This document shows, piece after piece, positions 8,934 through 46,573 of a stretch of 46,573 nucleotides of DNA. This DNA comes from Actinoallomurus sp. (lineage in GTDB: Bacteria > Actinomycetota > Actinomycetes > Streptosporangiales > Streptosporangiaceae). The notes beneath the pieces were generated by a model. The model was not told the DNA's origin, did not search any database, and saw only the letters and a list, made by a program, of their open reading frames with translations. Both the position numbers and the translations under genes were made by a program. Location of the stretch: the NCBI GenBank assembly GCA_025964625.1, contig JAOPYL010000004.1, positions 1 through 46,573 on the forward strand. The letters run 5' to 3'. Within the stretch, counting starts at the first letter, position 1; every line of letters starts with the position of its first letter.

Positions 8934-9893
8934 ATGTTTCGCTTCATCATCCGGCGGCTGCTGTTCGGGATCCTGGTTCTGTGGCTGGTGTCGTCGACCG
9001 TCTTCGGCCTCCTCCATCTGTCCCCGACACCGGTGGAGAAGATGATCGCGGGCCCCCGGGCCTCCGCCGCGACGGTCGCGCTGATCAGGCACAACCTGGG
9101 GCTGGACAGGCCGTTCCTGATTCAGTACTGGAGCTTCCTGAAGAACACCTTCACCGGCGACCTGGGGTACTCCTACGTCACCCAGTCGAAGGTCGCGTCC
9201 TTGATCGCGGACCGGCTGCCGGCCACCCTGTGGCTGGTGTTCGGCGCCGCCGTCCTGTGGTTCGTGGGCGGCATCACGACCGGTGTGCTCAGCGCCACCA
9301 AGGCGCGCGGCCTCCTCGACCGCGTCTCGACGGTGTTCGTGCTCATCGGCCTGTCCATCCCGCCGTTCCTGATGGCGCTCCTGCTGCTGTTCCTGTTCTT
9401 CACCAAGTTCGGCGACTGGGGCATCCACCTGTTCCAGCCCGGGCAGTACGTCTCGCCGCTCGCCGACCCGACGATGTTCCTGCAGCGCATGATCCTGCCG
9501 TGGCTCGCGCTGGCGTTCCTGATCGTCGCGACGTACACCCGGCTGACCCGCGGATCGATGATGGACGTCCTCAGTGAGGACTACATCCGCACGGCGCGGG
9601 CCAAGGGCCTGTCCGAGCGGCGGGTCGTCTACCGGCACGGCCTGCGCGCCGCGCTGACGCCCGTCATCACCCAGTTCGGCGTTGACCTGGGTGCGCTGAT
9701 CGGCTCGACGATCGTGACCGAGAAGGTGTTCGGCCTGCAGGGCATCGGCCAGCTCGTCTACTCGTCGATCGTCCAGGGCGACACCCCGGTGATCCTCGGC
9801 GTGACGCTGCTGACGGCGCTGTTCGTGGTCGTGGCGAACCTGATCGTCGACATCGGTTACTCCTTCCTCGATCCGCGCGTCCGCCTCGACTGA
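8934..9893 (+). CDS. ABC transporter permease, DppB/OppB type
   Basis: Second membrane subunit, 319 aa, with six predicted helices. The N-terminus MFRFIIRRLLFGILVLWLVS and the RHNLGLDRPFLIQYW loop are hallmarks of the B subunit; the EAA loop is DYIRTARAKGLSERRVVYRHGLR. It begins 9 nt after the previous gene and closes the operon, followed by a hairpin at 9931–9963. The common operon order is A-B-C-D-F; here it is A-D-F-C-B. Confidence 0.95.
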   Translation: MFRFIIRRLLFGILVLWLVSSTVFGLLHLSPTPVEKMIAGPRASAATVALIRHNLGLDRPFLIQYWSFLKNTFTGDLGYSYVTQSKVASLIADRLPATLWLVFGAAVLWFVGGITTGVLSATKARGLLDRVSTVFVLIGLSIPPFLMALLLLFLFFTKFGDWGIHLFQPGQYVSPLADPTMFLQRMILPWLALAFLIVATYTRLTRGSMMDVLSEDYIRTARAKGLSERRVVYRHGLRAALTPVITQFGVDLGALIGSTIVTEKVFGLQGIGQLVYSSIVQGDTPVILGVTLLTALFVVVANLIVDIGYSFLDPRVRLD

Positions 9894-9930
9894 GCGACGG
9901 CCGCGGCTCTGGACGGCCGCTCCGGCGAAT

Positions 9931-9963
9931 TCGGCCGGTCGCCCCCTGCGGGCGGCCGGCCGA
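9931..9963 (+). terminator. Hairpin closing the ABC operon
   Basis: A 14-bp G/C-rich stem (9931–9944 with 9950–9963, one G·U) and a 5-nt loop, 37 bp after the last permease stop. No T-run follows. Confidence 0.75.
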
Positions 9964-10000
9964 TTCCATGTCAGCCTCCCCCTGTTCGCTGATCTAGGCT

Positions 10001-11311
10001 GTGCCCGTGTCCTACGCGACGGACCTGCGACTGGTCATCAAGGGCCGGGACTTCCGCCGCCTGTTCGCCACGCGGGTGGTCTCCGCCCTGTCCGACGGCG
10101 TGTTCCAGGTGGGCGTCGCGGGATACGTCCTCTTCTCCCCCGAGCGGGAGGCCACCGCGGCGCAGGCGGCCGGCGCCGCGGCCGTGCTGCTGCTCCCCTA
10201 CTCGTTCCTCGGGCCGTTCGCCGGCGTCTTCATCGACCGGTGGCGGCGCCGCGAGATCCTCGTCTACGCCCCCCTGATCCGTGCTCTCGCGGTGGCCGGC
10301 ACGGCGGCGCTGCTCGCGTACGGCCATGACGGCGTCCTGTTCCTCCTCGCCGCGCTGATCGTGCTGGGCGTCAACCGGTTCTTCCTGTCGGCGTTGTCGG
10401 CCGCGCTCCCGCACGTGGTCGAGCGCCGTGAGCTGATCACCGCCAACGCGGTGTCGGTCACCTCGGGGACGATCGCGGCCTTCGCCGGGGCCGGCGTGGG
10501 ATACCCCCTGCGGCTGCTGTTCGGCGCCGACCGGCACGGCACCGCGCTGATCCTGCTCTGCGCCGCCGTCGCGTACGCCGCCACCGCGCTCGTCGCCAGG
10601 CCCCTCGGACGCGACCTGCTCGGCCCGGAGCTCCACGCGGCCCGGCCAGAGACCGGTGAGGCGGTGCGCCGCGTGCTCCGCGGGCTACTCGACGGCGCCC
10701 GCCACGTCCGTGAACGCCGGGCGGCCGCCGCCGCGCTCGGCGCGATCGGTGTCCACCGGTTCCTGTACGGCATCACGACGATCATGACCGTGCTGCTCTT
10801 CGGGAACTACTTCGCCAAGAGCGCCCAGGCCGGGATGGGCGGGTTCGCGATCGTCCTCGTCGTGTCCGGCATCGGCTACTTCCTGGCCGCCGTGATCACC
10901 CCTCCGATCACCGAGCGGATCCGCAAAGAGACGTGGATCACCATCCAGCTCGGGTTCGCCGCCGTGGCCGAGGTGGTCTTCGCCGCCCCGTTCTCCCCGA
11001 TCCCCTTCATCATGGGCGGCTTCCTGCTGGGCATCGTGTCCCAGGGCGTGAAGCTCTGCGTGGACACGATCGTGCAGACGGCCGTCCTCGACCCCTATCG
11101 GGGCCGGGTGTTCTCCTTGTACGACATGATCTTCAATGGCCTTTTCGTCGCCGGCTTCGCGGTCGCGGCCGCCATGCTGCCGCCCACCGGCAAGTCCTAC
11201 GCCGCGCTGGCCGTCATAGGTGGCGGCTACGCCCTCGGCGCACTCGGCTACTGGCTTGCCGCCAGAAACACACCGAGGCTTGCCACCGCCCGTAGTGACC
11301 TGAGGGCGTGA
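10001..11311 (+). CDS. Major facilitator superfamily transporter
   Basis: A 436-aa integral membrane protein with about 12 helices. The N-terminal RLFATRVVSALSDGVFQVGVAGYVLF and the loop FIDRWRRREILVYAPLIRA (the MFS motif A region between helices 2 and 3) place it with drug-exporter-like MFS proteins. Substrate is unknown. GTG codons at 10001 and 10007 are both possible starts; neither has a clear ribosome-binding site, so the transcript may be nearly leaderless. It converges on bioA, 82 bp away. A comparable MFS gene occurs near pcnA in streptomycetes, from memory of synteny. Confidence 0.88.
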   Translation: MPVSYATDLRLVIKGRDFRRLFATRVVSALSDGVFQVGVAGYVLFSPEREATAAQAAGAAAVLLLPYSFLGPFAGVFIDRWRRREILVYAPLIRALAVAGTAALLAYGHDGVLFLLAALIVLGVNRFFLSALSAALPHVVERRELITANAVSVTSGTIAAFAGAGVGYPLRLLFGADRHGTALILLCAAVAYAATALVARPLGRDLLGPELHAARPETGEAVRRVLRGLLDGARHVRERRAAAAALGAIGVHRFLYGITTIMTVLLFGNYFAKSAQAGMGGFAIVLVVSGIGYFLAAVITPPITERIRKETWITIQLGFAAVAEVVFAAPFSPIPFIMGGFLLGIVSQGVKLCVDTIVQTAVLDPYRGRVFSLYDMIFNGLFVAGFAVAAAMLPPTGKSYAALAVIGGGYALGALGYWLAARNTPRLATARSDLRA

Positions 11312-45395: not shown

Positions 45396-45515
45396 GTGAA
45401 GAAGCTCATCGTTCTTGCGCTGGTCGCCCTCGGTGGATTCGCGGTCTGGCGTCGGCTTCAGCAGGACCGGGCCGAGCTCGACCTGTGGACCGAGGCGACG
45501 TCGGCGGACAGCTGA
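45396..45515 (+). CDS. DLW-39 family small protein
   Basis: A 39-aa protein ending in the family signature: KKLIVLALVALGGFAVWRRLQQDRAELDLWTEATSADS. It has one short membrane helix, then a charged segment with the invariant D-L-W. GTG 45396 follows GAAGGGG. Its length of exactly 39 residues fits the actinobacterial family named for it. The position between tRNA-Ile and tRNA-Ala is conserved. Function is unknown. Confidence 0.9.
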   Translation: MKKLIVLALVALGGFAVWRRLQQDRAELDLWTEATSADS

Positions 45516-45555
45516 GAGACGACTTAGGTACCGGCGGGGAGCATGGAGGGCGGGC

Positions 45556-46269
45556 GTGGGCGACACAGCGCGGATCACGCTCGCCTGCCTTGACCTCGCC
45601 GGTACGACCGTGGCGGACGGCGGGGTCGTCGAGATGGCCTTCGCCGAGGCGCTCGCAACTCAGGGCATCGTTCCCCGGACCGAGGCGTACGACCGCGCCA
45701 TGGCCCGGGTGCACGCCGCACGAGGCCAGTCGAAGCTCGCCATCTTCCGTGAGGTCATCTCCGACGAGGACCGCGCCCAGGCGGCCAACCATTCCTTCGA
45801 TCGGGCCTACGACTCCGTCATCGACCGTGTCGGCCTGACGCCGGTCCCCGGCGCCGAGGACGCCATCGACCGGCTCGCCGACTCCGGCATGCACGTCTGC
45901 CTGATGACGGGCTTCGGCCGTACGACCCTGGGCCGCGTGATCGACACGCTCGGCTGGTGGAAGCGGGCCGACCTCCTCCTCTGCCCCGACGACGTCGGCG
46001 GCCGCGGCCGCCCGTACCCCGACATGATCCTCACCGCCGCGCTTCGGCTCCAGATCGAGGACGTCCGCGCCATCGCGGTCTGCGGCGACACCGAGAGCGA
46101 CATCCGCAGCGGCCGCCGCGCCGGCGCCTCCATCGTCGCGGGCACGCTCACCGGCGTCCACGACCGCGACCGCCTCCAGGCCGCCGGCGCCACCCATGTG
46201 ATCGACAGCATCGCCGACCTACCGGACATCGTCCTCCGCACGAGCGCGGCAGTGCCCGCGCCCCGGTAG
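45556..46269 (+). CDS. Phosphonatase-like HAD hydrolase
   Basis: A 237-aa haloacid dehalogenase-family hydrolase. Motif I is D13-L-A-G-T-T: Ala replaces the second Asp of typical phosphatases, as in phosphonoacetaldehyde hydrolase. Motif II is LMTGFGRTTL, and motif III is CGDTESDIRSGRRAG. The cap has RGQSKLAIF, resembling the Schiff-base Lys loop of phosphonatase. This fits the 'phosphonatase-like hydrolase' family; a true phosphonoacetaldehyde substrate is unproven and no phn genes are nearby. GTG 45556 follows GGAGGG. Confidence 0.88.
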   Translation: MGDTARITLACLDLAGTTVADGGVVEMAFAEALATQGIVPRTEAYDRAMARVHAARGQSKLAIFREVISDEDRAQAANHSFDRAYDSVIDRVGLTPVPGAEDAIDRLADSGMHVCLMTGFGRTTLGRVIDTLGWWKRADLLLCPDDVGGRGRPYPDMILTAALRLQIEDVRAIAVCGDTESDIRSGRRAGASIVAGTLTGVHDRDRLQAAGATHVIDSIADLPDIVLRTSAAVPAPR

Positions 46270-46288
46270 GCTGTTCTCCACCCTTCTC

Positions 46289-46361
46289 GGGGCCTTAGCT
46301 CAGTTGGTAGAGCGCCTGCTTTGCAAGCAGGAAGTCAGGGGTTCGAATCCCCTAGGCTCCA
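46289..46361 (+). tRNA. tRNA-Ala (anticodon TGC)
   Basis: 73 nt, acceptor GGGGCCT/AGGCTCC (one G·U), D-arm GCTC…GAGC, anticodon loop TTTGCAA and TΨC loop TTCGAAT. CCA is not encoded (ACA follows the discriminator), so the pcnA product must add it. Its 3' end is the probable attachment site for the neighbouring integrase. Confidence 0.96.
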
Positions 46362-46445
46362 CAAGCCAGAACGCCTCCCCCCGGATCATGGACGGGGGCG
46401 TTCGTGCCATTAAGCCACTGGGACCAGCACCCCGCCGCGCCGTCG

Positions 46446-46573
46446 TCATCGTCCGGTCTCTCCGCCTTGACCCGTGTCGAGGGCATCGGTGATCTTGCGG
46501 TCAGTGTCGCGTGTCGCATGCTCGTAGATGAGCGCTGCTCGATCGCTGTCATGGCCCATCCGTGCCTTGAGGT
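46446..46573 (-). CDS. Tyrosine recombinase (integrase), C-terminal fragment
   Basis: The last 41 residues of a site-specific recombinase: LKARMGHDSDRAALIYEHATRD carries the G-H of the catalytic pocket and the nucleophilic Tyr (A-L-I-Y-E-H-A-T), followed by a short tail and a TGA at 46448. The protein runs off the right edge. It faces the tRNA-Ala gene, 84 bp away, the usual layout for an element integrated at a tRNA 3' end. Whether the gene is intact cannot be seen. Confidence 0.85.
   Translation of the reverse strand, partial: LKARMGHDSDRAALIYEHATRDTDRKITDALDTGQGGETGR

Follow-up and report, generated by a model that had tools for sequence, protein, structure and literature searches.

The DNA analysed here (the window, 46,573 bases) is a whole contig whose right end falls inside an integrase gene, and we conclude, with a probability of about 0.85, that an actinomycete integrative (and conjugative) element (AICE), or a decayed remnant of one, has its attL junction at this end. 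The window holds a tRNA-Ala gene faced by the C-terminus of a tyrosine recombinase (Table 1), and in relatives the same anatomy occurs together with direct repeats of the tRNA 3′ part and with AICE genes. Judged by these relatives, the window would contain the edge of an element from a clade whose complete members are AICEs, and it is a probable AICE-type candidate, of a kind already known and with an ordinary arrangement.

Table 1. Features at the right end of the window
Feature	Position	Strand	Basis or remark
Left-flank gene, relatives of which adjoin this tRNA in other genomes	45556-46269	+	ORF 45415-46269
tRNA-Ala, anticodon TGC; integration target	46289-46362	+	ARAGORN
Predicted attL core, tRNA nucleotides 32-74, 43 bp	46320-46362	+	inferred from second copies in relatives
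Inverted repeat (hairpin) between att core and integrase stop, 13-pair stem	46370-46402		covariation, fold
Putative element-arm motif TTCGTGCCATTA	46401-46412	+	starts 39 bases past the tRNA end
Tyrosine recombinase (integrase), final 41 codons and stop, cut by the contig end	46446-46571	-	

Both the tRNA and the recombinase had been proposed by the first-pass annotation, and both stand. The tRNA called by ARAGORN is also matched by the Rfam tRNA model RF00005 over 46289-46361 (E 3.7e-15), and the integrase, which had been placed about 84 bp away and facing the tRNA, is convergent to it across a spacer of 83 bp. Read on the minus strand from 46571 to 46449, the fragment is LKARMGHDSDRAALIYEHATRDTDRKITDALDTGQGGETGR, followed by a stop codon at 46448-46446. 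It aligns with residues 335-373 of the full-length integrase of Nonomuraea deserti KC310 (G010), a member of the same family as the host, the Streptosporangiaceae (67% identity; E 1.8e-10 when the own genome was searched), and it contains an MGH box and an IY tyrosine, which we take to be the catalytic boxes of tyrosine recombinases; with Pfam, the 41-aa fragment alone gave no match at E ≤ 0.001. AICEs have a site-specific recombinase beside the attachment site, and in the window this place is taken by a tyrosine-recombinase C-terminus of 41 codons. The arrangement of tRNA and integrase is likewise present in the same-genus genome G003, with 77% DNA identity over window positions 46242-46571 and 85% identity between the two integrases over 33 aa. 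An alignment of the window with 11 relatives spans the tRNA, the hairpin and the integrase end; the integrase tail of the window has a gap of 2 bases, absent from the other 11 aligned sequences, which alters the final residues, downstream of the tyrosine. Among 61 genomes of the family, tRNA and integrase end were recovered in one match in the own genome (G000) and in at least 4 of the 60 others (G010, G053, G071, G073), and a further partial tRNA copy on the same contig and strand, at most 20 kb from the tRNA, is present in at least 7 of the 60, including G010, G012, G027, G030, G037, G053 and G073.

When named genomes were scanned with the N. deserti integrase, 21 loci were returned, which give the patterns of one query and not a census. 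Ten of them, from nine genomes, are at least 80% identical to the query (L102-L106, L108, L110, L115, L118 and L119; L102 is the query's own locus and the same as L058, and L115 is also from N. deserti). A tRNA-Ala(TGC) lies within 300 bp downstream in nine of these ten loci, and in L115 a 41-bp partial tRNA-Ala copy stands in place of the whole tRNA. Eight of the 11 remaining loci are found by a tRNA-Gly (four CCC, three GCC and one TCC), with the tRNA on the upstream side of the integrase gene in the three GCC cases; L113, L116 and L117 have no tRNA within 300 bp of the integrase. A relative from N. gerenzanensis in the plasmid collection faces a tRNA-Gly(CCC). The tree was built from 25 of 26 fragments, the 33 aa of the window falling below the 35-aa limit, and is also without L120 (no fragment), L102 (identical with L058) and the G012 integrase (L062). 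In it the tRNA-Ala users of this clade are gathered in a single group, to which the pieces L115 and L117 also belong (12 rows, support 94/98), and the tRNA-Gly users are placed apart from this group and spread over several others. The integrase alignment was reduced from seven sequences to four, two rows being divergent or frame-broken and the window piece short. Clade and target are not exclusively linked, as the same tRNA-Ala is also occupied by a frame-broken integrase in G012 (about 51-56% identical) and by a distant one (30%) in G019, from another family.

We predicted the attL core at tRNA nucleotides 32-74 because relatives have second copies of about this 3′ part of the tRNA. The tRNA-Ala loci of 12 relatives were inspected over up to 40 kb each, and a downstream second copy was found in six (G001, G006, G010, G011, G012 and G019) and not in the other six (G002, G003, G004, G005, G007 and G008), the search in G003 and G008 being limited by contigs that stop less than 3 kb from the tRNA. 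By BLAST the copies begin at tRNA nucleotides 27-34 and end at 73 or 74, some of them extending a few bases past the tRNA end; the G019 copy begins at nucleotide 46 by BLAST and at about 29 when compared letter by letter. Five of the nine named tRNA-Ala loci also have a second copy (N. deserti, N. harbinensis, M. malaysiensis, N. maritima and Spongiactinospora), and none was found in the other four within about 10 kb each. The N. deserti locus is counted in both sets, its copy being read through L058, and the N. harbinensis copy is cut by the end of L106 and whole in L117. The proposal that an element edge lies at the tRNA 3′ end is upheld by these relatives, which share the integrase clade, the convergent orientation and repeats starting at about nucleotide 32. 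The repeat itself had been expected at about 46330-46361; the relatives, which do have a repeat of the tRNA 3′ part, suggest 46320-46362.

Two of the relatives have more than one further copy. In G006 (L056, 5460-9600), the tRNA-Ala 3′ part occurs three times in about 4 kb, the tRNA included, and a fourth, weaker copy (84% over 43 nt) follows 4 kb on, at G006:C1:3343680-3343722; an IS110-type transposase and small genes are found between the copies, and L056 and L057 contain no related integrase. In G011 (L060, 2145-15409) there are three tandem copies, again with the tRNA included, and the following 60 nt are also repeated, identically in two copies and with one mismatch in the third; therefore, the repeat unit in L060 extends past the tRNA.

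The body of such an element can be read in N. deserti, where the tRNA-derived copies are 14.1 kb apart and enclose the integrase, an excisionase (TIGR01764, 1.2e-16), RepSA (PF20199, 5e-106), an FtsK/SpoIIIE translocase, a GntR/UTRA regulator, a helix-turn-helix protein and a flavoprotein. AICE replication initiators are of the RepSA, RepAM or primase-polymerase type; the N. deserti RepSA is above the Pfam cut-off and far below the NCBIfam RepSA equivalog cut-off (33 vs 700 bits). Genes for int, repSA and tra occur together in five of the nine named tRNA-Ala loci (L102-L106, with an L106 integrase that lacks about 65 internal residues), and the other four are decayed (L108, L110, L118 and L119); a partial RepSA is present in a sixth of the nine. 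In L119 (N. glycinis), an ORF at about 9240-10120 fuses part of RepSA to the last 40 integrase residues, a pattern that a deletion would leave and a case of decay at this site. The genes examined in the islands of relatives, called there and in the flanks by a rough method based on GC content by codon position, belong to known, mostly ordinary families: transposases, an O-acyltransferase with an AlgX-like partner, a sigma factor, a dehydrogenase, a kinase and a helicase. Against defence models, the kinase (best 1.4e-58) and the helicase (best 1.5e-22) match many via general domains. The kinase of the tandem island at this tRNA in G012 (L062, 6108-8252) matches PD-T4-6-type kinase models of PADLOC (1.4e-58), and it may be a plain Ser/Thr kinase.

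The complete relatives at this tRNA are similar to AICEs of the pSAM2 kind, as far as these are described in the available text of the survey PMC3218068, with the order int-xis-RepSA-FtsK/TraB-GntR and, in N. deserti, tRNA-derived repeats at both ends, whereas in the own genome the integrase end alone is assembled. The same text states that most AICE tyrosine recombinases integrate in tRNA 3′ ends and that close integrases usually share a target; the target here is tRNA-Ala(TGC), and the word Ala is absent from the survey's main text. pMR2 of Micromonospora rosaria (NC_006910) has the relative gene order in common with them, with FtsK/SpoIIIE, a replication initiator, an excisionase and an integrase, but its integrase is only 36.7% identical to that of N. 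deserti and falls outside the tRNA-Ala group in the tree. In Streptomyces, rows of AICEs or their remnants at one tRNA, flanked by direct repeats, have been termed accretion (PMC9513070, available text), and the tRNA-Ala of the relatives resembles such sites in having several elements or remnants in a row with direct repeats. The Streptomyces example given in that text is a tRNA-Arg, in contrast to the tRNA-Ala(TGC) seen here mostly in Streptosporangiaceae.

From these comparisons we infer how the junction may have formed. A tyrosine recombinase that uses tRNA-Ala(TGC) would have recombined a core of about 43 bp (nucleotides 32-74) between a circular element and the chromosomal tRNA gene, which would stay whole because the element supplied its 3′ half, together with the hairpin just after it. 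The body would lie beyond the contig end, where the integrase would be followed by xis, an initiator of the RepSA type and an FtsK/TraB translocase; a complete element would then have an attR copy, at a distance of perhaps 10-14 kb, and may still be mobile.

The hairpin begins 7 bases past the core. When 11 distinct sequences are compared, 90.9% of the cells are paired, which none of 500 shuffles matched, and this share falls to 43-48% if the partners are shifted by 1-3 columns; the pairing had been picked by eye from the same sequences on which it was tested. The 24 cells changed on both sides and the covariation score of 0.438 were each reached by 0 of 500 shuffles as well, and two further measures are not above the shuffles, namely the 6 pairs with change on both sides (198/500) and the 11 further pair types (316/500). 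In the window itself the stem has only a moderate advantage over shuffled sequence, with a fold of -23.1 kcal/mol and a z of -2.25 (8 of 200 shuffles as good), or a z of -1.6 over 60 nt with simple shuffles. Different stable hairpins stand right after the core on the attR sides of several loci, with z values from simple shuffles of -5.6 in N. deserti, -4.6 in M. malaysiensis, -4.1 in N. harbinensis and -2.6 in Spongiactinospora; the attR side of N. maritima has no stable hairpin (z -0.3, also simple shuffles).

Of the arm motif, the pattern G[GT]GCCATTA has a single occurrence on the two window strands together (93,146 bases). The hairpin's motif TTCG[GT]GCCATTA, or a variant, takes the corresponding position at 15 of 21 tRNA-Ala loci, many of which had been chosen for their integrase; the six loci without it are G005, G006, G008, G011, G012 and G019. 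In the same-genus genomes G002, G004 and G007, both hairpin and arm motif are present beside this tRNA, and a full-length integrase query found no match in the 20-40 kb by the tRNA. An intrinsic-terminator scan of 45400-46573 gave no T-tailed site, and no T-tract follows the hairpin; therefore, the case for a terminator role is made by position, covariation and presence without an integrase. With these in mind, the hairpin is probably a terminator for the tRNA and for the convergent int, which the element may have supplied and which may be kept after decay. Its persistence after decay would explain why it is found in the three same-genus genomes with no detectable integrase there. A tentative generalization, to which we give about one chance in three, is that the arm of the Streptosporangiaceae tRNA-Ala(TGC) AICE clade carries the tRNA 3′ half and a replacement terminator, which is swapped in and outlasts decay of the element. 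The reverse, that the element picked up a host terminator, is possible.

We searched the own genome (375 contigs, 5.84 Mb; the seven same-genus relatives have 7.6-11 Mb) for the rest of the element. The window is contig C290 in full, so the rightward extension suggested by the first-pass annotation has no sequence to run into in this assembly. Outside tRNA genes there is no second att copy at up to 3 mismatches over 23 bases, the N. deserti integrase query found no contig with the remainder of this integrase, and no contig continues the last 24 bases of the window within 3 mismatches. RepSA has no match in this genome, and all seven same-genus genomes have one somewhere; FtsK/TraB gave distant matches only, on other contigs (30% at C185, 34% at C275). 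Either the assembly has lost the body of the element, or the element in the window is a remnant. Two integrase pieces were considered as the missing part and rejected: a truncated one near the left end of C362, which is 29% identical to that of N. deserti and whose frame breaks before the contig end, and one near the end of C285 (71% identical in DNA), which is a separate remnant at a tRNA-Gly. The latter (C285:26025-26690, L007:6026-6691) is a sister-clade remnant at tRNA-Gly(CCC), with a truncated integrase C-terminus between two 43-bp copies of the tRNA 3′ part that differ by 1 mismatch and start 594 bp apart. On the 7.6-kb contig C185 (4206-7173, L218), a distant integrase (27%) and the FtsK/TraB-like gene lie about 1 kb apart and are possibly another AICE of this genome.

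A decayed, immobile remnant, that is, an integrase stub by the tRNA with an attR nearby or none, is a sub-case that overlaps with the attL reading, and we put it at slightly below even odds. Remnants of this kind are known from relatives, as in the N. glycinis int that is reduced to 40 residues and fused to part of rep, in the frame-broken integrase stubs of Spongiactinospora (about 77 residues) and G001, and in the hairpin and arm motif left without an integrase match in G002, G004 and G007; the own genome adds the tRNA-Gly remnant with its closely spaced repeats. The lack of RepSA in the own assembly and the frame change in the integrase tail of the window point in the same direction. However, the reading frame of the 41 codons is uninterrupted as far as the contig end and retains the conserved boxes, and the accessory body may simply be missing from an assembly that is so fragmented and smaller than those of the genus.

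A prophage or phage satellite using the same tRNA is unlikely. The N. deserti integrase does match 1,509 phage records, the best place of each being below 60% identity, and the mycobacteriophage Ms6 uses tRNA-Ala 3′ ends in mycobacteria (PMC1762012, available text). In that text, however, the Ms6 core is 26 bp long and lies in the T-loop, and its unmodified vectors integrate in the GGC gene of M. smegmatis and the CGC gene of BCG, not in a TGC gene. Identity to the integrase query is 51% for the best of 80 IMG/VR loci, among the matches listed, whereas it is at least 80% for the close relatives at this tRNA, five of nine of which have RepSA and FtsK/TraB. A 35-base stretch of the integrase end has no exact match in viral contigs, and Pfam found no phage structural families among nine N. 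deserti proteins and ten from other islands. That the assembly joined the tRNA to a stray integrase piece would fit a contig that stops inside the integrase gene, but we regard it as very improbable, given that order, spacing and orientation are the same in G003 and the other aligned relatives.

The flanks of the attL junction agree with the earlier claim that the conserved region ends here, as the left-flank gene is shared with relatives and the right flank splits into two blocks (G001, G004 and G007 vs G002, G005 and G006). The left-flank gene is presumably a HAD-type hydrolase; its start codon and its likeness to the relatives' cluster c0, which is found in 10 loci and in G005 lies about 6 kb from the tRNA, were both picked by eye. 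As for genes of the relatives' right flank, a DUF5682 gene had no match in the own genome in a search run without a positive control, and a PAC2 gene on contig C101 lies near a different tRNA-Ala (GGC) and does not bridge the gap.

For the window, the finding mainly marks where the chromosome stops being core. More widely, this tRNA-Ala is a recurrent landing site, and a target and core (about tRNA nucleotides 32-74) are suggested for an integrase clade with possible use as an integration tool for Nonomuraea and related actinomycetes. If the hairpin reading is true, the element would replace the terminator of the tRNA as well as its 3′ end.
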